From positions 1 through 29,480 of the IMG/VR virus record IMGVR_UViG_3300035182_000304: a DNA stretch of 29,480 nt. One strand, written 5' to 3'. Positions 10,046 to 28,206 of the stretch are shown here, in pieces. The stretch comes from a virus. The notes under the pieces are model-generated. The model made no database searches, was not told the origin of the DNA, and saw only the letters and a list, made by a program, of their open reading frames with translations. Positions within the stretch are counted from its first letter, which is position 1, and every line of letters starts with the position of its first letter. The translations under genes were made by a program, and so were the position numbers.

Positions 10046-10782
10046 ATGCGACAACGTTCGAAGGCTCATACATGATGTATGGAAGAAGCCTTCATAACCA
10101 GAAAACCAGAGTGTTGCTTTATGGACATCTGCGAAAGAAGTTTGGAAAGCTGCACGAGCTCTCCATCAGTAGCCCAGCAGAAGCTGTCAGAGCTTTGTCT
10201 CGCCGCTTCCCTGGGTTCTTCAAGGCGGTTCGCTTCCACCAACCTGGGTTCGCTGTGTTCATCGGCAGAGATAATATTGAGGAACGCTGCCTGACAATGT
10301 GCAACGGTGGTGAGGATATTAAGATCGTCCCACTGACTTCTGGTGCAGGCAACGCTAATTGGATGCAGGTCATTGTAGGTGCTGTCTTAATTGCAGCTGG
10401 TGTCGTGATCGGCTACACGACTGGCTGGTCTGGCGTTGGACTCACCGTAGCCAAGGGATTCATCACTGCTGGCGCAGCCATGATCATCGGTGGTGTTGCA
10501 AACATGCTCTTCGCTCCTTCACCTCCGGACGCTCCACAAGAATCCGACGGCCACAAACCCAGCTACTTGTTCAATGGGCCTGTGAACACCTATGCTCAGG
10601 GACACTGCGTACCTGTGCTTCTTGGTGGTCCGCTCCGCGTTGGAAGCTGTGTAATCTCTGCATCTCTTGTTGCGGAGGAGTGGAATGAGGGTGGCGGTTC
10701 TGATCCGAACGATAGCACGACTAGTGATTCTGGTATTGATGATGGTTTTGGTATTCACCGTTGGCGTGTGAAGACGACTTAG
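10042..10782 (+). CDS. Tail assembly protein, gpI-like
   Basis: A 246-aa protein. Residues 20-90 (TRVLLYGHLRKKFGKLHELSI, then ALSRRFPGFFKAV) look like the beta-grasp, ubiquitin-like N-terminal domain of lambda gpI. Residues 110-160 form a Gly/Ala/Val-rich hydrophobic stretch (MQVIVGAVLIAAGVVIGY and later AAMIIGGVANMLFAPSPP) typical of the family. The C-terminus has FNGPVNTYAQGHCVPVLLGG and ends in an acidic Ser/Asp/Gly-rich tail. The start ATG at 10042 overlaps the K-like stop as ATGA; an in-frame extension to 9985 is not supported by a ribosome site. K and I form a JAMM plus ubiquitin-like pair known from lambdoid tails. Confidence 0.85.
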   Translation: MNATTFEGSYMMYGRSLHNQKTRVLLYGHLRKKFGKLHELSISSPAEAVRALSRRFPGFFKAVRFHQPGFAVFIGRDNIEERCLTMCNGGEDIKIVPLTSGAGNANWMQVIVGAVLIAAGVVIGYTTGWSGVGLTVAKGFITAGAAMIIGGVANMLFAPSPPDAPQESDGHKPSYLFNGPVNTYAQGHCVPVLLGGPLRVGSCVISASLVAEEWNEGGGSDPNDSTTSDSGIDDGFGIHRWRVKTT

Positions 10783-10790
10783 GAGCTGGG

Positions 10791-13313
10791 ATGTTTCGGA
10801 TCGCTGGTTCTGGTGGTGGTGGTGGCAAGAGTGGTGGTGGTGCTCAACACACGCCAGTCGAAGATCCCGATTCCCTTAACGTCAAGTCCAGAGCTCGTGT
10901 TCTAGAGGTTATCTCTGAGGGACCAATTCAGGGTCTCGTAGACGGACTAAAGTCTGTATATCTCGACGACACTGTTCTCCAGAATGGAGACGGAAGCTTC
11001 AATTTTAAAGACGTTACTCTTCTCTCGACGACCGGGACACCTACACAGGGCTACATCACAGGGTTCCCTTCCGCCGAGGCTGAGGTTGGGGTCGATCAGG
11101 AAGTTCGTCTAGATACACCAGTGATAAGGTCCTTTGCAGACTCGACGGTTGATGCGATCAGAGTGACGCTGAATTTCCCACAAATGGAAAAAGTCAATTC
11201 CAGCAATGGAGACATTCACGGGACGACCGTTCAGATGGCGATCGACGTCCAGGCTAATGGTGGCGGCTACCAGAACAAGGTTCTGGATACCATTACTGGG
11301 AAAGCGACCTCTGCTTACGAGCGTAGCTACCGCATTGAGCTTCCCAAACCTGGTCCTTGGGACATAAAGGTCCGACGAGTTACAGCGGACAATCACTCCG
11401 CGACGCTCATGAACCAATCGCGCTGGAAGTCCTACACCAAGATCACCGATAAGAAGCTCTCCTTTCCTAACTCTGCGATCATCGCTCTCCAGATGAATGC
11501 CGAGGTTTTCTCTTCCATCCCAACGCGTGGCTACGAAGCTTGTGGACTCATCTGTCGCGTGCCGACCTCTTACACAGCTCCTGTCTACAATCCAACGACA
11601 AAACTCTGGTCGGATCCCGTTAATACTGGAACCTGGGATGGATCTTTCAAGCTCAGTTGGACGAACAACCCCGCCTACTTGCTGATGGAGTTGCTCACCA
11701 ATCCTCGCTGGGGAATGGGTGAGTATGTTAAGGACACTGACCTCGACAAGTGGGCTATTGAGGCTATTGGTAGATATTGCGACGGGATGGTTCCCGACGG
11801 CAAGGGTGGAACTGAGCCTCGTTTCAGGCTGGCGCTGTATCTGCAGACTCAGGAAGACGCTTACAAGGTGGTCCAGAACATCTGCTCAACCTTCCGTGCA
11901 ATGAGTTTCTGGGGTGGGGACCGAATGTTCTTGGCCCAGGACTCACCTGCTACAAGCATTGCCGCTCTGTATACCAATGCAAATGTCCTCGACGGAGTCT
12001 TCACTTACTCCTCAGCGCCACTGTCTTCCAAGCACTCCGTCGCCACCGTGAGTTGGAACAACCCAGCAAACAACTACAAAACCGAGCGAGAGTACGTAGA
12101 GCGGAAGGCTTCAGTTGACCGCTACGGGATTCGGCAAACCGACATCGCTGCGATGGGGTGTATCTGGCAAGGACAGGCCCACCGTCAAGGGGATTGGGCT
12201 CTTTACAGCGAATGGGCAGAAGGGGAGACAGCCACCTGGCGGACGGACCTCGAAGGCCTTTGTGCGGGACCCTTCGAGGTGATTAACTTATGCGATACAA
12301 ACCGTACCGGTTTGCGCATCGGTGGACGTATCGTAGCGGCGACAGCGACCCAAGTTACGATCGACTCGGCTGTAGCGATTGACTCCACCGAAAACCCTCT
12401 ATTGTCCGTGATGCTTTCCGACGGGACGATCGCTACGAAGGGTATCACGAACGCCACAGGATCCTACACAGTCCTGAATTTAGCATCAGCTCTAACCTCA
12501 GTTCCGGTATCCGATAGTCCTTGGGCACTATCCACCGACTCACTCGTTCCGCTCACAATGCGAATTCTCAGCATAGTAGAGATAGATCCCAATACTTATG
12601 AGCACATTGCGGTTATCCATGACCCCAATAAATACAGTGCCGTTGAGCTTGGGATAGAGTTGGAATCCAAACCCACCTCACTGAACGATAGCAACCTAAC
12701 ACCTACCGCTCCGACTGCGCTTTTGGTCACCGAGAACTTGTACAATTCTGGCTTCGATCTGAAGACGAATATTCACGTCGAATGGACTGGAAGCCTAATT
12801 GACAAAACCTACTCCGTCGAATATCGCAAGGACTCCGGCAACTGGACTGTGCTTCCTGAGGTATCCGCTCATAGAGCAGACATCGCAGACGTAATACCTG
12901 GTAGCTTGTACGAAATCCGAGTCGCCGCTTTGAACTTATTGAAGAGATCCCCTTATAGCGCCGTCAGTTCATACATAGTGCTGGGCAAGACCATGCCTCC
13001 AGCCGACGTCACAGGTTTCACGATCGACTACAAGGCATTCGGTGTGACGCTGAAATGGAATCCCAACCCGGACCTAGACCTCGATGGTTACGAGATCAGG
13101 AATGGATCTGTATGGGACTCCGCCACGTTCCTGAACTACGGATCTTCGACGAGCTTCACGATTCCCCTCACCGCCAGTGGGTCTTCACAGTTCTTGATAA
13201 AGGCGAAGGACACCTCTGGGAACTACTCGATTACTGCAGCTTCGGCAAACGTCACCATCACACCAACTACACCAGCTACCTTGACGATGACGGTTTCTGC
13301 CATTAAGCCTTGA
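10791..13313 (+). CDS. Central tail-tip protein J (host specificity)
   Basis: An 840-aa protein. ATG 10791 is chosen because TAGGAGCTGGG precedes it at good spacing; the frame is open back to a TTG at 10761. The Gly-rich start and the stretch LNVKSRARVLEVISEGPIQGL with VYLDDTVLQNGDG are hallmarks of lambda J and its relatives. Further J features are NPAYLLMELLTNPRWGMGEYV, SFWGGDRMFLAQDSP and WNNPANNYKTEREYVE. The C-terminal third (about residues 630-830) holds two fibronectin-III-like domains (IHVEWTGSLIDKTYSVEYRK and VTLKWNPNPDLDLDGYEI). The protein forms the hub of the tail tip and, with the next gene product, probably contacts the host receptor. Confidence 0.93.
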   Translation: MFRIAGSGGGGGKSGGGAQHTPVEDPDSLNVKSRARVLEVISEGPIQGLVDGLKSVYLDDTVLQNGDGSFNFKDVTLLSTTGTPTQGYITGFPSAEAEVGVDQEVRLDTPVIRSFADSTVDAIRVTLNFPQMEKVNSSNGDIHGTTVQMAIDVQANGGGYQNKVLDTITGKATSAYERSYRIELPKPGPWDIKVRRVTADNHSATLMNQSRWKSYTKITDKKLSFPNSAIIALQMNAEVFSSIPTRGYEACGLICRVPTSYTAPVYNPTTKLWSDPVNTGTWDGSFKLSWTNNPAYLLMELLTNPRWGMGEYVKDTDLDKWAIEAIGRYCDGMVPDGKGGTEPRFRLALYLQTQEDAYKVVQNICSTFRAMSFWGGDRMFLAQDSPATSIAALYTNANVLDGVFTYSSAPLSSKHSVATVSWNNPANNYKTEREYVERKASVDRYGIRQTDIAAMGCIWQGQAHRQGDWALYSEWAEGETATWRTDLEGLCAGPFEVINLCDTNRTGLRIGGRIVAATATQVTIDSAVAIDSTENPLLSVMLSDGTIATKGITNATGSYTVLNLASALTSVPVSDSPWALSTDSLVPLTMRILSIVEIDPNTYEHIAVIHDPNKYSAVELGIELESKPTSLNDSNLTPTAPTALLVTENLYNSGFDLKTNIHVEWTGSLIDKTYSVEYRKDSGNWTVLPEVSAHRADIADVIPGSLYEIRVAALNLLKRSPYSAVSSYIVLGKTMPPADVTGFTIDYKAFGVTLKWNPNPDLDLDGYEIRNGSVWDSATFLNYGSSTSFTIPLTASGSSQFLIKAKDTSGNYSITAASANVTITPTTPATLTMTVSAIKP

Positions 13314-13323
13314 GGAGACCCTT

Positions 13324-16300
13324 GTGCCCTATCGCTTGCCCTACCAAGACGATTCCTCTGTATTGCAGAACAATAGCGGGACTCCTCGGGTCGTGAACCC
13401 GAAGTGGCTCACGTTCAACTGGACACACAACGACACGAATCCCGCTGGCTCACTCAAGAGTTTCAGGCTGGTGGTCTACAAGGGAACCGATCCGAACCTG
13501 TCCTCGAACTATATCGTCGAGCCCATTATGATCCCCGCCACCGAGACCTCGGCTGTGGTCCCTGTTTTGGTCGCGGATCAGGTCACGGTCTTTGGCGCGA
13601 TTCAGGCAGTATATGTCAACGGCAACGAGTCCTCTTGGCGCACCATCAGCGGGACAATCGTGGTCGATCCCGATACGGTCTCCCTCAAGGACGCAGCAGG
13701 GGTCACGGCGATCCAGGCCAGTGTGAACGACATTGTCTCGGACGATGTGCTGGACACCAGCGAGAAGGCTCATTTTAACCTCGTATACACGACGGTCACA
13801 CAGGAACAGACCAGCGTGGACGCTCAGGCCACGAACTTCAGTGGCATAGTTGCCGTCACCACGGCCAAGACCTCCTACGATAACGCCGTCACAAATCTGA
13901 CCGCATATGTCAACGCTCTGAGCCCTGCATTCACGGACTTCACCTTGAACACACCACTCGGGGTCGGTGGTGGTGCCACAATGCGAACCAAGTTCGCCCT
14001 CGTGTTCAGCACCCGAGAGGCTCTGCTCAAAGCAGTTGCTGACGCCCAGAAAGCTCTGGCGGATGCGGCTCAGAGTGGTGTCATCGTCCCAAATCCAAAC
14101 TTCGATCAGGACATGAACTCCACTTGGCCCAACATGACGCAGATAGCTGCGGCTTCAGCTCCCGCAGGGTGCCCAACGCCGTTCTGTGGTCGAGCGCAAG
14201 CGCGGGATCAAATTGCCGGGCCTCGATTCCCTGTTACACCTGGGGCGCAAATTTATTACGAAGCATGGATTGACACGACACAAACCACCCATACGGCATC
14301 ATTTGGTCTGTATTTCCGAGATGCCGCTAACAATCTTTTCATGGGAGTCTATGGCGCAACCGCACCCGCTGGGTCAGCGTGGGCGAAGCGAAGTGCAACT
14401 TTAACGGTCCCGGCGGGAGCGGTGTCGGCTCATTGCTTCTGCCAGATAGAAGCAACCTCGTCCTTCGGTAGCGCCTACTTCACCGGACTACGGGTGAGTG
14501 AGGGCATCCCAGCGCAGACCGGCGTCAACACGATCAATGATCCCGACACCCTGACCACGGGCGAGAAGCCGCAGATCATCCTGGACTACAACGCGGTCAC
14601 GGGTGAGAACGCGGACCTCGTGAACAAGGCTGGAACCTATGGCGTGAGCCATGGGACCTATGACACGGCCTATTCCGCGCTGCTGTCCTACCTGTCCACG
14701 CTCACCAGCCCCACAGCCTGGAACTCCCTGAGTGGCACCACGGCGCTCGGAACTGGCAATCGCGTGGCCCTTTGGAACCCGAAGTGGACCGCCGTGAAGA
14801 ACGCCGCCGCCGATCTGCGGAACGCCATCGCGGTGGGCACGGCGCAGAACGCGATCAGCACGGCGGCGACGGATGCCACGAACAAGGCCAATGCCGCGCA
14901 ACTCGCTTCCCAGCCGCATCAGGTGGCATGGGCCTATGCGTCGAAGCCTGCGCTGCCAGATCCTGCTTACCCAGCTGGTTACTACGCGATCACCACGGAC
15001 GCTCGCACAGTGCAGGTAAGCGCGGCTGGCACGGCGTGGACGGACGTGCTGGTGGCGACAACAGGGCTCTTCGGGCAGTTGTTTGCGAACCAGCTAACGG
15101 TCGCTAACTTCGACAATCTGATTCCCAACCCTAACAGCGATCAGGCCCCTCCTGCGGGTGGATGGCCACCCGGATCTTTTGAGAGTGCTGGTTTATTGGT
15201 AAATCCCTCATATGCACACACTGGGAATAGTTGCCGGGTTGTCAGTGATTACACCGGCAACACGGTTACAAAAGGAATCCAAGTAACTCCAGTTATTCCT
15301 TGTGCAGTGGGTGACCAGTTCCTCGGTCAGTTCTGGGCGTTTTCCGGTTCAGCAACGGGCGCAGCAGGTCTCTATATTTCATGGCGCAACGCTTCATATT
15401 CGGAGGTTGCTTCAACTTTCTTAACGACGCCCCTTACGGGGGTCTATGCGAAGAGTAGTTTTATCGCCCAGGCTCCATCCGGGCTCGGTGTTATCGGTTT
15501 CTCGGTCTCTATAGCAGGCTACAGCATTCGTAACCAAGACGTGTTCTTTGACGATCTATATTTCCGACGAATGGCGGATGCAAACCTCATCGTGGACGGC
15601 ACGCTCCAGGCTCTCGTGGCGCGGGTGCCGTTGCTCTACTCGCTGGACATGCGGAGCGGTTCGGACGCGAGCGGATACCAGGCGGGAACGGCCAACTCGG
15701 CACCCATTGGGTACAGGATCAGCGCGGGTGGTTTTACTTCGACCGCAATCGGTGGCACAACATTCACCGCGCAGGTAGAGCTTGGCTATGGCGTCAATTT
15801 TGGGGGTTATCAAGTTGGACCACTAACTGCTCGTGCCATGAGCGCCATTGGTGACAACGGCCAAACAGGAACCTCGTTCCGGTGCTGGTATCGCGGGAGC
15901 AACGACCCTGGCACCCTTCAGGGGGCTCCGAATATCGCGCGCTTCTATGTTCAATCGGCATGGCAGAATACGAGTACTGGCCGCTTCATGCTGAATTTCT
16001 TTCTTCGCCCAGCCGCCTATACAGACAACTTTGATGGGATGCGTTACGCCAAGATTGAGTTCTGGCGAGGGAATACATCATCAGCCACAAAGATAATGAC
16101 CAGCTATTGCAACCTTCCAGATCGCCTTTACTACAGCACTACAGATAGCGACCCAGGCAATGCTTCAGCAGCAAGCGTATACTTTGAAAATGACACAACC
16201 TCCGGAATCCTTTCTGGGAATGACCCAAGATTCTTCTTATTCATAACTATCTACAATGCTGCGGGACCATCTGCTTCGGCCTGGTTCGTTCCCCCATCAG

Positions 16301-16794
16301 CATTAGAAACGGATTGGACTCAGCAAACTTCTTCACCATTCTCTGGTGGTTCGTCTGGTGGTGGGGGTGGGGGTGGAATCAATGGCGGTGGCACTTGCCC
16401 AGCTCCCGACGTGCCTTTGCTCATGGCCGACGGCACCGAGAAGCCAGCTGGACAGATCCGCGTCGGCGACCGTGTCGTAGCCTGGGATGAGGCGGCTGGG
16501 TGCGAGTGCATAGAGGAAGTCACCTTCGTTGAGCGCGGTGAGAATACGGTCGCCAGACTCTATCTGGACAATGGGCAGGATGGTCGCTTCGCTATGAATC
16601 ACCGGTTCCTCACCCACCACGGCGAATGGACCGAACTTCAGCACTTGCACGCTGGCGAAAAATTGCATGGCGCATCCGTTGTCTGCGTCCAGCCGCTCGG
16701 CTTCGCAGAAGTAGTGAAGATCACCGTCAACCGCGTCCACACCTACATCACGCTCGGCGTGGTATCTCACAATGTGAAGGCCCTCATCACCTAA
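13324..16794 (+). CDS. Modular tail fibre with C-terminal Hint domain
   Basis: A 1156-aa protein starting at GTG 13324 after TGAGGAG. Visible modules in order: a fibronectin-like N-terminus (20-115); an alpha-helical module (135-248); a beta module opening with VPNPNFDQ (about 255-395); a second helical module (402-515); a second beta module opening with IPNPNSDQ (about 600-755), resembling carbohydrate-binding folds; a 200-residue distal beta domain; a Gly linker (1007-1024); and a Hint domain (1025-1156). The Hint part has the nucleophile Cys1025, PLLMADGTEKPAGQIRVGDRV, MNHRFLTHHGEW (block B-like) and HTYITLGVVSHN with His1149-Asn1150, then six residues. No endonuclease is inserted and the residue after Asn is Val, so cleavage rather than splicing is expected. 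It probably binds the host surface. Confidence 0.85.
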   Translation: MPYRLPYQDDSSVLQNNSGTPRVVNPKWLTFNWTHNDTNPAGSLKSFRLVVYKGTDPNLSSNYIVEPIMIPATETSAVVPVLVADQVTVFGAIQAVYVNGNESSWRTISGTIVVDPDTVSLKDAAGVTAIQASVNDIVSDDVLDTSEKAHFNLVYTTVTQEQTSVDAQATNFSGIVAVTTAKTSYDNAVTNLTAYVNALSPAFTDFTLNTPLGVGGGATMRTKFALVFSTREALLKAVADAQKALADAAQSGVIVPNPNFDQDMNSTWPNMTQIAAASAPAGCPTPFCGRAQARDQIAGPRFPVTPGAQIYYEAWIDTTQTTHTASFGLYFRDAANNLFMGVYGATAPAGSAWAKRSATLTVPAGAVSAHCFCQIEATSSFGSAYFTGLRVSEGIPAQTGVNTINDPDTLTTGEKPQIILDYNAVTGENADLVNKAGTYGVSHGTYDTAYSALLSYLSTLTSPTAWNSLSGTTALGTGNRVALWNPKWTAVKNAAADLRNAIAVGTAQNAISTAATDATNKANAAQLASQPHQVAWAYASKPALPDPAYPAGYYAITTDARTVQVSAAGTAWTDVLVATTGLFGQLFANQLTVANFDNLIPNPNSDQAPPAGGWPPGSFESAGLLVNPSYAHTGNSCRVVSDYTGNTVTKGIQVTPVIPCAVGDQFLGQFWAFSGSATGAAGLYISWRNASYSEVASTFLTTPLTGVYAKSSFIAQAPSGLGVIGFSVSIAGYSIRNQDVFFDDLYFRRMADANLIVDGTLQALVARVPLLYSLDMRSGSDASGYQAGTANSAPIGYRISAGGFTSTAIGGTTFTAQVELGYGVNFGGYQVGPLTARAMSAIGDNGQTGTSFRCWYRGSNDPGTLQGAPNIARFYVQSAWQNTSTGRFMLNFFLRPAAYTDNFDGMRYAKIEFWRGNTSSATKIMTSYCNLPDRLYYSTTDSDPGNASAASVYFENDTTSGILSGNDPRFFLFITIYNAAGPSASAWFVPPSALETDWTQQTSSPFSGGSSGGGGGGGINGGGTCPAPDVPLLMADGTEKPAGQIRVGDRVVAWDEAAGCECIEEVTFVERGENTVARLYLDNGQDGRFAMNHRFLTHHGEWTELQHLHAGEKLHGASVVCVQPLGFAEVVKITVNRVHTYITLGVVSHNVKALIT

Positions 16795-16805
16795 TAGGAG
16801 CCACC

Positions 16806-17252
16806 ATGGCCGACACCCTTCAAACCCTCGCCCTTCTCAACGGAAAGGAGGCCGCGCTCATCCAGGCCAAGAACCTGGTGGATCAGTGCGCCGCTTCCAT
16901 CGCGCAGCTCCAGGCGGCCAATTACGCGGAGAAAGCGCCCATCGTCGCATCTCTCCAGGGCGTGCCCACCATCGGCATCAAGTCTCAACTCACCGTTGAG
17001 GCTGAAGCTGAGCGGTTGGTGGGCATCAGCGCCATGATCGACGCGATCAAGGCCAACCCAGCAATTGACCCCACGGCTACCCAGGCGGCCTGGGTCGCGG
17101 CAGTCGCGGCCTTCACCACGAACACCCCCATCGAGAACCCCGTGGGAGTGGTCACGGCCATCATGCGGATCATCAATGCGCCGGACTGGGCATCGTTCAC
17201 GGCCATCATCTTGGCCGGGGCCAAGGCTGATCTTATCGCGGCGGTGTCGTGA
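16806..17252 (+). CDS. Hypothetical protein downstream of the tail fibre
   Basis: A 148-aa protein with no recognised domain. The start ATG 16806 has GGAG 5 bases upstream; an in-frame extension into the fibre gene is discarded. Residues 1-60 are predicted helix (LNGKEAALIQAKNLVDQCAASIAQLQAANYAEKA) and may form a coiled coil. The rest is Ala/Ile/Thr-rich, helical and mildly hydrophobic. The base composition is GC-rich like the Hint-coding end of the fibre, unlike the AT-richer distal fibre region before it. It could be a fibre-associated or chaperone-like protein by position only. Its stop overlaps the next start (TGATG). Confidence 0.65.
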   Translation: MADTLQTLALLNGKEAALIQAKNLVDQCAASIAQLQAANYAEKAPIVASLQGVPTIGIKSQLTVEAEAERLVGISAMIDAIKANPAIDPTATQAAWVAAVAAFTTNTPIENPVGVVTAIMRIINAPDWASFTAIILAGAKADLIAAVS

Positions 17253-24092: not shown

Positions 24093-25997
24093 CTACTTCT
24101 TGCCAGTCCTCTTGGCGATCCTCTCTTCCAAAGCATCGGATGCGGCTTGTGCCTTGGCGGTCTGCTTTGGCACCTGGTAGGCTTTCTTGGCCTCCGGGTT
24201 CTTTTGGGCAGGGGTGGGTGCCTCAGGTTCTTCCGGAGCCACCTTGGTGCCTTTCTTGCTAACCGGGGAGGTTTTCTGGACACTGGGTGAGAGGTCGAGG
24301 TCCAGGATCGCCTCCTCCTCGGAGCTGATCTTACCCTTGTCTTCCGGGAGAGGATCAGCGATGGCAAAGTCTTTGACGGACTTGAGCTGCTTGGTTGCGG
24401 AAGGAGCGTCAGAGAGGATCTCTTTTCCACCAGGAGCCACGAGCTTGACCCAACCGCGCTCGAAGTCCCAGTGCAGATCCTGGTAGCGACCGCCAGCCAA
24501 GATGTATTCCTCGTAGGTCATGCCATCCTTCAAGATTTCCCAGGAGGTATAACCGACAGCAGTGTCGCGCCTCGGGTTGGCCGAGATGAGCTTGAAGATA
24601 GTGTGGCCGAGGAACATCTTCTTGCCACCACCAATTTTGGAGGTGACAGGCTCAGCCTTGGTGACCTTCCCCGACTTCCGGAGTTCGACCCAGCCGCGAT
24701 CCAGATCCCACTTGAGGTCCTGGGTCCTACCTCCCTTGGTGATGTAGTCCTCGAAGAGCATGCCGTCAGTGATCTTGTTCCAGGACTCGAACCCTCCGGT
24801 GCCGGGACGGCGAGGGTTCTCGCCGAGGAGCCGATGGATCGTGTGGCCTTCGAAGGCGAGGCGACGTCCAGGAGCGCCAGCAACCTTGATCCCCTTTACC
24901 GCCTCGATCTCAGCGGCAGCACCCTTATTGGTCAGCGTGATGTAGAAGTACGGTCCGTCACCAGTACTATCGTCTTCCATCTTGATCATGTCGTTCTGGG
25001 CGAGGCGAGTGCAGACCCGGACTGCCTGTTTTGTGGGGATCCGGAGTGCCTTGGCTACGGCGTCACTGGAGGTCTGAGCATCGTCGCCGTTCTTGGCGAT
25101 GTCTTCCTTGATGAACTGGAAGGCGCGAGCCACGATGGCCTCATCATCGTTCTTTTCGTCGCTTTGGGTCACAGGAGCCTCGTGGACTTCCTCGGTAGGA
25201 GGCGGGGTCGCCTTGGACTTCTCCTTGGTGCTCTTGGTCTCGCTGGGTGCCACGGTGGCCTTTGTGACGACCGGGGTCTCCTCCGCCTTGGGCAGCGGCA
25301 TTGGGCGAGTCTTGCCAGATTCGATCCGAGCCTTCTGCTCGGCATCCTTCCGATTGTTCTCCTGCATCTTCTTCAACTCACCCTTGGTGATGAACGCAGG
25401 CTCTTCGAGGTTCTCTCCGCGACCGCATTCCTTCGCTAGCTTGTGGAAGGTGGAGTAGGTCCAGTCGTGCTCTCGGCCGAAGTCCACGATGGACTGCTCA
25501 GCCAGTTCGCGGGTCTTGAACTTCTTCACTGTTTCCTTGGGGTTGCAGGTGTTCCAGATCTTCACCAGGCCGTCGTCGCTGACCTTGGTCACAGCCCAGG
25601 GGAGCGTCTGCGTCGGGAAGGGCACTAGGTTTGCGTTCGGAACGATAGGAGCAGGCTGGAGAATACTCTCAGGCTCGGGGTTCGGGACTGGCTTCGTGTG
25701 GCAGTCCTTGCAGACCGGGACCTCGTAGTCTGTGTTGCTGGGGTTGCAGGAGAGAATGTAGAGCTCTTTGCCATCCACTCGGTTCTTGCTAACCTTCTGT
25801 CGGATCTCCTCGATCGGAGCTTTCACCAGGATGGTATCGTGAGCCATGGGCTGTGAACAGCGAGTGCAGAGTACGATGTTGAAGAGCAGGAAGTTGTTGT
25901 TGTCGTCGAGCTTCGTGAAGTTGCTCTTGGTTCCTCTCTTCACGGAAGCGATCTTGGTGAACTCAACGGTCTTGTCTGATTTTGCTTTGATGGCCAT
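24093..25997 (-). CDS. Large protein with zinc, winged-helix-like and tandem repeat domains
   Basis: A 634-aa protein, not recognised as a whole. ATG 25997 has AAGGAGG at 8 bases; an upstream in-frame extension (to 26162) overlaps another gene and is rejected. Visible parts: a Cys cluster (C44-x2-C47, C84, C96-x2-C99) likely to bind zinc; a linker and helical region to 225; a low-complexity K/T/P/E segment (225-285); a winged-helix-like region (286-365: DAVAKALRIPTKQAVRVC, then a wing YFYITLTNKG); and two related 60-residue repeats (379-438 and 460-519). The repeats share GHTI..L...NPRR, (F/Y)(E/T)SW..(I/L).DGM..E(D/E)YI..GGR.QDL.WD..RGWV. A K/P/E-rich tail (530-634) follows. It is probably a DNA-binding or regulatory protein. 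Confidence 0.75.
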   Translation of the reverse strand: MAIKAKSDKTVEFTKIASVKRGTKSNFTKLDDNNNFLLFNIVLCTRCSQPMAHDTILVKAPIEEIRQKVSKNRVDGKELYILSCNPSNTDYEVPVCKDCHTKPVPNPEPESILQPAPIVPNANLVPFPTQTLPWAVTKVSDDGLVKIWNTCNPKETVKKFKTRELAEQSIVDFGREHDWTYSTFHKLAKECGRGENLEEPAFITKGELKKMQENNRKDAEQKARIESGKTRPMPLPKAEETPVVTKATVAPSETKSTKEKSKATPPPTEEVHEAPVTQSDEKNDDEAIVARAFQFIKEDIAKNGDDAQTSSDAVAKALRIPTKQAVRVCTRLAQNDMIKMEDDSTGDGPYFYITLTNKGAAAEIEAVKGIKVAGAPGRRLAFEGHTIHRLLGENPRRPGTGGFESWNKITDGMLFEDYITKGGRTQDLKWDLDRGWVELRKSGKVTKAEPVTSKIGGGKKMFLGHTIFKLISANPRRDTAVGYTSWEILKDGMTYEEYILAGGRYQDLHWDFERGWVKLVAPGGKEILSDAPSATKQLKSVKDFAIADPLPEDKGKISSEEEAILDLDLSPSVQKTSPVSKKGTKVAPEEPEAPTPAQKNPEAKKAYQVPKQTAKAQAASDALEERIAKRTGKK

Positions 25998-26029
25998 CTT
26001 GGGCCTCCTTGTGGTGGGTGGGAATGGGT

Positions 26030-26146
26030 CTAGCGGTTGATGAAGAGGTCTGTGACTGCTCCGACCGCGTCGGGCAGGCCTTGCAGGATTCCGAACAGTA
26101 TGGCGGCGAAGACTGCGCCGAGTAGAACCTTGTCTCGCTTTCTCAC
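26030..26146 (-). CDS. Very small membrane protein (38 aa)
   Basis: This 38-aa reading frame starts at GTG 26146, overlapping the upstream stop as GTGA, with GAGGAGG 7 bases upstream inside the preceding gene. The peptide has a basic start (VRKRDKVLLGAVFAAILFGI), one hydrophobic segment (about 7-21) and ends in DLFINR. The strong ribosome site, coupled overlap and membrane-like composition argue that it is real. Function unknown. It fills most of the gap before the 634-aa gene. Confidence 0.6.
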   Translation of the reverse strand: MRKRDKVLLGAVFAAILFGILQGLPDAVGAVTDLFINR

Positions 26147-26667
26147 TTGGGGACCTCCTCATTCATCTTGTCATACCAATCCAGTTCAAAACTGAGAGTG
26201 CGAAGTTCGTTGCGAAGAGCCTTGGCGTAGTGTGCCGAAGCGACGGTGGTGAAAGAATCACTGGTGCAGTCTGTCTCGATCCACATGAAATTATCACCTT
26301 CGAGCAGAGACTTGCGAAGCATCTCGACTACACTTCGCAGAGCCTCGATGCCGTTGATGTTTTTCTCGTAGTGCTTGTTAAAGCAGCTTGCTAGAGCCTT
26401 GAAAGCGTCAGCCTTCATGAGATCTTCTCCCCTCCACCGGAGAGCTTCGTAGCCGGATCCTGAGACCATCCTAGCCACGAACCCGTCTTGGAGACTCTTA
26501 GCTTCGTCTGTGTAGTAGTTCACCTTCTTGGCCACACCTTTCAGTATGGAATTCATGCTCTCCTTGCGTTGGCAGGTAGGACAGAGCTTGCGTTCCTGCC
26601 AAACCCCGCAGTGTCCGCAGGACTGGTTGGTCGGTGCCGTAGGATTCTTTGCTCGCTTGATGGCCAT
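26143..26667 (-). CDS. Hypothetical protein with N-terminal zinc ribbon
   Basis: A 174-aa protein. Residues 17-32 form a Cys4 zinc ribbon (C17-x2-C20-x8-C29-x2-C32, in QSCGHCGVWQERKLCPTC). The rest is mostly helical, with NYYTDEAKSLQDGFVARMV and a C-terminal SAHYAKALRNELRTLSFELDWYDKM. AAGGA lies 9 bases before ATG 26667. It may bind nucleic acid or a host protein through the ribbon; no family is recognised. The stop overlaps the start of the 38-aa gene. Confidence 0.68.
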   Translation of the reverse strand: MAIKRAKNPTAPTNQSCGHCGVWQERKLCPTCQRKESMNSILKGVAKKVNYYTDEAKSLQDGFVARMVSGSGYEALRWRGEDLMKADAFKALASCFNKHYEKNINGIEALRSVVEMLRKSLLEGDNFMWIETDCTSDSFTTVASAHYAKALRNELRTLSFELDWYDKMNEEVPK

Positions 26668-27417: not shown

Positions 27418-27737
27418 TAGCGTGCCATCCTCATGAAAGCGGACTCGACTTCGTAGGGGATCCGGGACTTGTGCTCGATGTAGTTGTCGTAGAGGTGAAG
27501 GACGTACTGGCTGTTGACTTGTCCGTGGTAGATCTGGTCTGTTCTCTCTCCTAGGTAGGTGCAGACCCCAACTTCACCAGGACGAGGTAGGCACTTGGTG
27601 ATCCCTCGTGACATGTCCCACATGATGATTCCGGATTCAGACTCGGTCTCGAACTCGGCGAACTTGATCTGCTGGCCATTCGCAGCGTAGTGTCGGCCAG
27701 TATTGAACTCCCGGACTTCCCCGAAGGTGACGGCCAT
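27417..27737 (-). CDS. Hypothetical protein
   Basis: A 106-aa protein. ATG 27737 shares a base with the upstream stop (TAATG); longer in-frame versions (to 27878) overlap the upstream gene and lack a ribosome site. The sequence is beta-rich and Tyr/Glu-rich (FGEVREFNTGRHYAANGQQIKFAEFE, TDQIYHGQVNSQYVLHLYDNYIEH), suggesting a small single-domain fold. No family recognised. Confidence 0.6.
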   Translation of the reverse strand: MAVTFGEVREFNTGRHYAANGQQIKFAEFETESESGIIMWDMSRGITKCLPRPGEVGVCTYLGERTDQIYHGQVNSQYVLHLYDNYIEHKSRIPYEVESAFMRMAR

Positions 27738-27850
27738 TAGCGCACCGCCTTTCGCGCTACTGCGTAGCTCGTGGCTTGGACGGTGACAAACTCCTGGGCA
27801 GCCACCGAGAACACGAGGTAGGTGTAGAGGACGACGGTCTTGATCTTCAT
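27737..27850 (-). CDS. Small secreted or membrane-anchored peptide (37 aa)
   Basis: A 37-aa reading frame starting at ATG 27850 with AAGGAG 7-8 bases upstream. It has a signal-peptide-like N-terminus (MKIKTVVLYTYLVFSVAAQEF) and a short polar tail, and ends in a TAATG junction with the next gene. An in-frame extension to ATG 28183 would give 148 aa but has no ribosome site at its start. The internal AAGGAG makes the short version more likely. It is the first gene after the promoter at 28207-28235. Confidence 0.52.
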   Translation of the reverse strand: MKIKTVVLYTYLVFSVAAQEFVTVQATSYAVARKAVR

Positions 27851-28206
27851 TGTGAACTCCTTGTGCCTTTGTCGGCACGGTGTGGGTTTGTGGCCTGAAT
27901 CGTCAGTGCTGGTCGGCCAGGATCCAGCATACAGGACCCGAAGGTCCTGTTTCATCTTGTCAACCCCATATGTAGATGGTCGTGGTTGTTTGATTGTATT
28001 ATCGCTATTGGGATTTTCCCTATGACCTGATTGCAATTCCATGACACCCGGGAGCCCTGTGCTATTGTCTAAGATCATTGGCGGAAGGTCGTGCTGGTTG
28101 GTTGCCCATTCCCGTGCTGCAGGCTTTCCCCACTTCCCCTTGGGGAACCCCAGTGTGATCTCATTTTGATTGGAAAACCTCATAAAAAACCGTAAGTATG
28201 TTACGA
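27851..28206 (-). other. Non-coding leader of the small-gene cluster
   Basis: About 350 bases lie between the predicted transcription start (near 28200) and the first well-supported start codon (27850). The stretch holds the tetraloop hairpin at 27931-27950, an inverted repeat TTCCCC/GGGGAA (28135-28148), and an AT-rich right end. The only frame through it is the unlikely 148-aa extension of the 37-aa gene. It may be a regulatory 5' leader or contain a small RNA; an origin of replication is also possible given the AT-rich side. Confidence 0.45.
27931..27950 (-). other. UUCG-tetraloop hairpin in the leader
   Basis: On the minus strand, ACAGGACC and GGTCCTGT form a perfect 8-bp stem closed by TTCG, giving the unusually stable C(UUCG)G tetraloop in RNA. 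No U-tract follows on the minus strand, so it is not a classical terminator there. On the plus strand it is followed by TTTCATCTTG, which gives weak terminator potential in that direction. As part of the leader RNA it may act in stability or regulation. Confidence 0.55.

Follow-up and report, generated by a model that had tools for sequence, protein, structure and literature searches.

A Hint-fold domain resembling A-type bacterial intein-like domains at the C-terminus of a predicted phage tail-tip fibre

Fold and active site of the Hint domain

The open reading frame (ORF) at positions 13324-16794 (+ strand) of the IMG/VR virus record IMGVR_UViG_3300035182_000304 (29,480 nucleotides, the whole of which is called the window below) encodes a putative tail-tip fibre of 1156 amino acids (aa; GTG start, TAA stop) that ends in a Hint domain of 126 residues (residues 1025-1150, 16396..16773, + strand). 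On balance, we favour the view that this domain is catalytically competent, of the A-type bacterial intein-like (BIL) kind, and that it would process the C-terminus of the fibre by itself. Support for this comes from the fold, the intact catalytic residues, purifying selection, the near-constant C-terminal position and the exchange of modules at the linker that precedes the domain.

A preliminary description of this DNA, made from the letters alone, had proposed a complete Hint domain starting at Cys1025, an 18-residue Gly/Ser linker before it, and an Ala in place of the usual Thr of block B. All of this held: the blocks it quoted are present, the linker occupies residues 1007-1024 (SGGSSGGGGGGGINGGGT, 16342..16395, + strand), and block B reads AMNH. 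The profile searches and structure prediction it had proposed as checks gave Hint matches (inteins, BIL, Hedgehog). Taken as a single sequence, the domain produced only sub-threshold matches in Pfam, NCBIfam and PHROG scans. In Pfam, Hint (5.6e-4) and PT-HINT (3.1e-4) were both below the curated cut-offs; the score for Pretoxin HINT (PF07591) was 21.5 bits against a cut-off of 27.7, and no domain follows the Hint, so that it does not belong to PF07591. Profiles of relatives were therefore needed. With ten relatives, the profile matched 8w20 (1.2e-8), the BIL 2lwy (1e-7), inteins and Hedgehog in the PDB; with 44 sequences, the best match reached 5.8e-15, followed by BIL2 6y75 in second rank (1.8e-13), an intein (8.9e-13) and 2lwy (9e-12). 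The AlphaFold2 model of the domain has a mean predicted local distance difference test score (pLDDT) of 95.1 and a predicted template modelling score of 0.87. It superposes on the DnaB and RecA mini-inteins, BIL2, 2lwy and Hedgehog 1at0 with Z scores of 18-20 and root-mean-square deviations of 1.4-1.9 Å over 124-130 residues. A model of the tip together with the Hint was poor (pLDDT 47) and was not used. On the domain model and the profiles, we consider it settled that residues 1025-1150 form a Hint-fold domain, the similarity being far beyond chance.

Active-site positions are named here after PMC4031507, and counts refer to 44 aligned phage Hint domains, which go down to 23% identity to the window's domain (many lie at 23-40%) and have a mean column identity of 35%. 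Most positions vary across this set. Cys1, His B:10, His G:6 and Asn G:7 are invariant (44/44), and His F:13 is found in 42 of the 44; the fold, with Cys1 and His B:10, places the domain in the HINT superfamily. The corresponding residues of the window are Cys1025, His1093, His1149-Asn1150 and His1139. Positions B:7 and F:4 affect the N-terminal step (PMC4031507). At B:7, Thr was counted 21 times, Ser 9 times and Ala 14 times, and the Ala (Ala1090 in the window) occurs in each of the 13 members sampled from the subgroup of the window and in one outlying member (L080). Position F:4, placed from the 8w20 alignment at domain residue 108, seven before the His of F:13, is usually Asp in inteins; it is Lys or Arg in 37/44 domains, and Lys in the window (Lys1132). 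In the window's subgroup, the residues of the C-terminal step (His F:13, His G:6, Asn G:7) are all intact, which suggests that Asn cyclisation, and with it C-terminal cleavage, is likely to be competent. With two N-terminal helpers altered and the core kept, formation of the N-terminal thioester is possible, though perhaps slow or dependent on context, assembly being one example.

By these sequence features and by profile similarity to 2lwy, the domain matches the description of A-type BILs. The His-Asn pair is present in 44/44 domains, no Cys, Ser or Thr stands at +1 (0/44; Val in the window), a Gly-rich linker and a fast-changing tip lie upstream, and the module is found on dissimilar tail proteins. 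The A-type BIL of Clostridium thermocellum (PDB 2lwy) shares with it the Hint fold (Z 18.1, 1.4 Å over 124 residues), Cys1, the block-B His, His-Asn without a +1 nucleophile, and a variable, non-active-site location in a modular protein. Unlike that BIL, domains of the window's kind end phage tail proteins with a C-flank of 4-15 aa and carry Lys/Arg at F:4 and a conserved Lys at +1/+2.

Other known systems resemble it less completely. The mini-inteins Ssp DnaB (1mi8) and Mtu RecA (2in0) have the same fold (Z 19-20), Cys1, His B:10 and His-Asn, but inteins of class 1 depend on a nucleophile at +1 and are typically lodged at conserved sites in conserved proteins. The window's domain has Val at +1, a 6-aa tail and a Gly-rich linker upstream, and a class 1 intein was ruled out on the first two grounds. 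A class 3 intein was rejected because Cys1 is present and F:4 is Lys rather than the Cys nucleophile of block F, and a B-type BIL because that type lacks the block G His-Asn found here. The Hog/Hint part of Hedgehog (1at0, Z 18.0) is likewise a C-terminal Hint behind a binding part and uses Cys1 thioester chemistry, but it lacks the His-Asn step at the C-terminus; in the window, the Hint is followed by just six residues, so that the sterol-recognition region carried by Hog is missing, and Hog was discarded. Pretoxin HINT (PF07591) and 8w20, the best single PDB match of the profile, resemble it by autoprocessing near protein C-termini, and differ by the further domain that follows their HINT.

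Predicted processing and module exchange

In the processing that we favour, the Hint domain would fold, the Thr1024-Cys1025 bond would shift to a thioester on Cys1025 with the assistance of His1093, and Asn1150 would cyclise with the help of His1139 and His1149, releasing the tail VKALIT (residues 1151-1156, 16774..16791, + strand). Water, a thiol or an amine would then resolve the thioester, and the fibre would part from the Hint domain. After this, the Gly-rich linker would form the end of the fibre, either bare or extended by the short VK tail; the Hint would in this picture be a C-terminal module that removes itself from behind a variable receptor-binding tip. Most likely, the product is a released Hint and a fibre that ends in the linker. 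A-type BILs that have His-Asn but lack a +1 nucleophile undergo cleavage and are also able to splice (PMC4031507; PMC7664689).

BIL chemistry is already known, as are Hint domains in phage proteins, which are annotated in UniProt (Foldseek matches). The literature searched, which was incomplete and left out most subscription journals, held no account of a Hint domain ending tail-tip fibres. As far as that literature can tell, the clade described below, the Lys/Arg at F:4 and the Lys after the Asn are new observations. Should the domain prove active, intein-type chemistry would mature some phage tail tips at their host-facing end, a step which that literature does not describe, and a phage adhesin would acquire a C-terminal thioester with no enzyme added.

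The Hint is under purifying selection. Between the window and relatives L002-L006, the synonymous divergence (dS) of the Hint is 0.06-0.37, with a ratio of nonsynonymous to synonymous divergence (dN/dS) of 0.07-0.30; for the 144 residues before the linker, dS exceeds 1.6. The variable tip domain that precedes the linker (about residues 764-999, 15613..16320, + strand) is near saturation at synonymous sites when compared with relatives whose Hint is nearly identical. DNA similarity to relatives stops near 15915, returns within the linker at about 16354-16396, and continues through the next gene. From this break and the differing dS values, the Hint and downstream gene on one side and the fibre tip on the other have separate histories. 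We infer that receptor-binding tips have been exchanged at the Gly linker, a putative recombination joint, while the Hint and the next gene stayed together.

The position of the domain is almost constant. It lies at the extreme C-terminus in nearly all relatives, often after a Gly- or Pro-rich stretch, and the protein ends 4-15 aa past His-Asn in 40/44 domains. The proteins that it ends are dissimilar: a gpJ fusion (phrog_31), phrog_5616 fibres, and proteins of phrog_1101/4271, phrog_376, phrog_2048, phrog_29329 and others. The Hint is present on each of the 19 contigs that share the window's tip domain; it is complete in 18 of them, all with Cys1 and His-Asn.

On sequence alone, the outcome could be release of the domain, its splicing out with the short tail joined to the fibre, or ligation of the fibre to an amine. 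The preliminary description had expected cleavage or joining instead of splicing, which is unjustified, as published A-type BILs can splice as well as cleave (PMC4031507). It had also held that nothing substantial follows His-Asn and that the next residue is Val. The Val is there, and only six residues, VKALIT, follow the pair, but this tail is not random: an aliphatic residue and a Lys at +1/+2 are conserved. Lys is at +2 in 37/44 domains (Lys1152 in the window), almost always after an aliphatic residue, and at +1 in 5/44. Past the Lys, very near relatives have hypervariable tails (KALIT, KTLT, KPENP, KAPPI, KPAP), even at a Hint DNA identity of about 90% or above. That conservation runs to +1/+2 and then stops would fit splicing of the A-type BIL kind, in which Asn1150 cyclises, the VKALIT peptide attacks the thioester on Cys1025 through its newly freed N-terminus, and the Hint is expelled. 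The product would be the Gly-rich linker joined to VKALIT, with the conserved aliphatic-Lys end as the new C-terminus of the fibre. A-type BILs are reported to splice in this way, by aminolysis without side-chain nucleophiles (PMC4031507). We nevertheless hold splicing to be unlikely here, if a serious alternative: cleavage products dominate in published A-type BILs, a C-extein of 4-15 aa is unusual as a splicing substrate, and the conservation at +1/+2 could serve the fold or the cleavage step alone.

Several points weigh against the reading that we favour. In the window's subgroup, the Thr of B:7 has given way to Ala and the Asp of F:4 to Lys; the invariant active-site residues could in principle serve metal binding or the fold; and the near relatives (64-98% identity in the domain) come from IMG/VR contigs of a few related metagenome series. 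The loss of Thr B:7 and Asp F:4 would suit a non-catalytic use, with the Hint kept uncleaved at the C-terminal end of the fibre, where it might cap the protein, clamp the trimer or serve in binding, and the domain does occupy the usual place of the receptor-binding domain of tail fibres. Such a use appears quite unlikely to us, however, since the catalytic residues of both ends are invariant across 23-40% identity while most positions vary, and since a cap would require neither a Cys at its start nor a precisely kept His-Asn close to its end.

The lysine after the His-Asn pair

The Lys that follows the Asn could be an acceptor, an aid to Asn cyclisation, or a part of the fold. Its distribution was compared between Hints with and without a +1 nucleophile. 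In seeded searches, Lys was at +1 or +2 in 32 of 40 Hints without a +1 nucleophile (two of these 40 look mis-parsed) and in 1 of 15 with one. Because the search seeds shared the Lys motif, IMG/VR was also scanned with a pattern blind to later residues (HTY[FY]ANGxLVHN, silent on what follows), which gave 28 non-redundant matches. Among these, Lys at +1/+2 was found in 14/16 Hints without a nucleophile versus 0/12 with a +1 Cys (Fisher 6e-6, kinship ignored); Lys at +3 occurred in 1/28, and no covariation of F:4 with +1 was seen. When the association of Lys with nucleophile loss was tested on the tree, only three independent contrasts were obtained on supported branches, and the sign test was not significant, so that shared descent may account for the Lys pattern. 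Within the supported tail clade, the Lys shifts between +1 and +2 (L083/L095/L102 and L157 versus the rest) and is kept in doing so.

These observations bear on an old question, namely how a Hint could ligate without a +1 side-chain nucleophile. BIL2, from the BUBL1 polyubiquitin locus of Tetrahymena thermophila (6y75, 6tmm), is reported to splice via a Lys side chain, forming an isopeptide bond (PMC8616854), and it is among the closest structures to the window's domain (Foldseek 5e-9, Z 19.5). Here, the thioester might be attacked by the Lys at +1/+2, or else by one belonging to a different protein of the virion or of the host surface, and an isopeptide bond would form, so that the fibre end would be covalently re-wired or anchored by the Hint domain. 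The enrichment of Lys in nucleophile-free Hints and its retention while moving between +1 and +2 would be in line with this. We nonetheless find such a ligation improbable. The sequences compared are related and not independent, as the few contrasts indicate, and the Lys may instead have a part in Asn cyclisation or in the fold. BIL2 also differs in its setting: its locus is eukaryotic, ubiquitin-like domains lie on both sides, its acceptor Lys sits in the next domain rather than at +2, and it is activated by Zn. A partner gene for ligation was sought among the neighbours, and the downstream gene proved to be conserved only in near relatives, other clades having other neighbours. There is an equally slim chance that nucleophile-free phage Hints form a lysine-directed class, in which this Lys, or one from an adjacent protein of the virion or host surface, takes the thioester, and isopeptide bonds link or re-tether the tail fibres by way of their Gly-rich C-terminus. 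If true, this linkage would be a covalent maturation or attachment step for phage tails, new to the literature searched.

Finally, a decaying intein that lost its C-extein by truncation is very unlikely, even though ordinary inteins do occur in phages of this group: purifying selection, the invariant catalytic residues and the presence of the module on dissimilar tail proteins are hard to reconcile with decay, as are the conserved tail motif and the usually low-complexity linker upstream; no Hint-less allele was seen among the 19 contigs with the same tip domain, unlike what an intein would show; and the tail Hints form a supported clade apart from the sampled nucleophile-bearing Hints.

Relatives, neighbouring genes and other Hint proteins

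In the tree, the tail Hints form one supported clade (100/99), separate from the other sampled Hints. More distant relatives (about 25-55%) were found on other phage contigs and in tail-gene regions of the genomes of Sphingomonas desiccabilis and Stakelama pacifica, the only two named hosts that the scan of genome contigs gave; class and phylum sweeps of genomes returned no further strong member of the tail clade. A tblastn search of 50,697 GenBank phages gave a single weak full-length relative of this clade (MT835519), the other matches being mostly inteins in terminases and portals. The clade is therefore almost missing from the deposited phages and mostly a feature of uncultured ones. Three of its members (L081, L083, L084) have 74-364 residues after His-Asn, and their Hint is internal.

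Directly upstream of the fibre gene lies a gene for a gpJ-like central tail-tip protein of 850 aa (10761..13313, + strand; phrog_31 central tail fiber J, 1.2e-248; lambda_TipJ model, 1.4e-131). Since the two genes adjoin, the identity of the product as a tail fibre at the tip, also put forward in the preliminary description, is well supported. In relatives L017/L018, the J, fibre and Hint parts are a single protein of 1863 aa. J and fibre are two genes in the window, and apparently also in L003, L004, L006 and L013. The only PHROG match of the fibre stalk covers residues 253-394 (14080..14505, + strand; phrog_26466, 3.5e-9, of unknown function). Downstream of the Hint, a gene of 148 aa (16806..17252, + strand; unknown family, no PHROG or Pfam match) is kept together with it among near relatives and is a candidate partner.

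Other Hint proteins were noted on the contigs and genomes of relatives. The L017 contig (IMG/VR 3300035181_000792; L028/L107) has a second, intein-like Hint in another ORF, which is split by a long insert; its flanks resemble the terminase hosts of relatives L024-L051. A 198-kb contig of a large phage (L080; L163, L164) encodes two Hint proteins, one of 226 aa whose stem is a Cys-rich repeat (CNGDCGCDANCGCDANLCGCDAF), and an open frame of 1457 aa with a Hint ending in SHNISN. In alphaproteobacterial genomes, six proteins (L174, L176, L178, L180, L182, L188) end a few residues past His-Asn-Lys, with HNK, HNKG, HNKIQ, HNKGLW, HNKCVQC and HNKTVKY. In the window itself, one minus-strand ORF of 689 aa (24093-26162) and two smaller ones (26143-26667 and 27737-28183) have no family matches; they share a block with helicases of the SNF2-like and UvrD-like kinds and with a partial match to a DNA polymerase.

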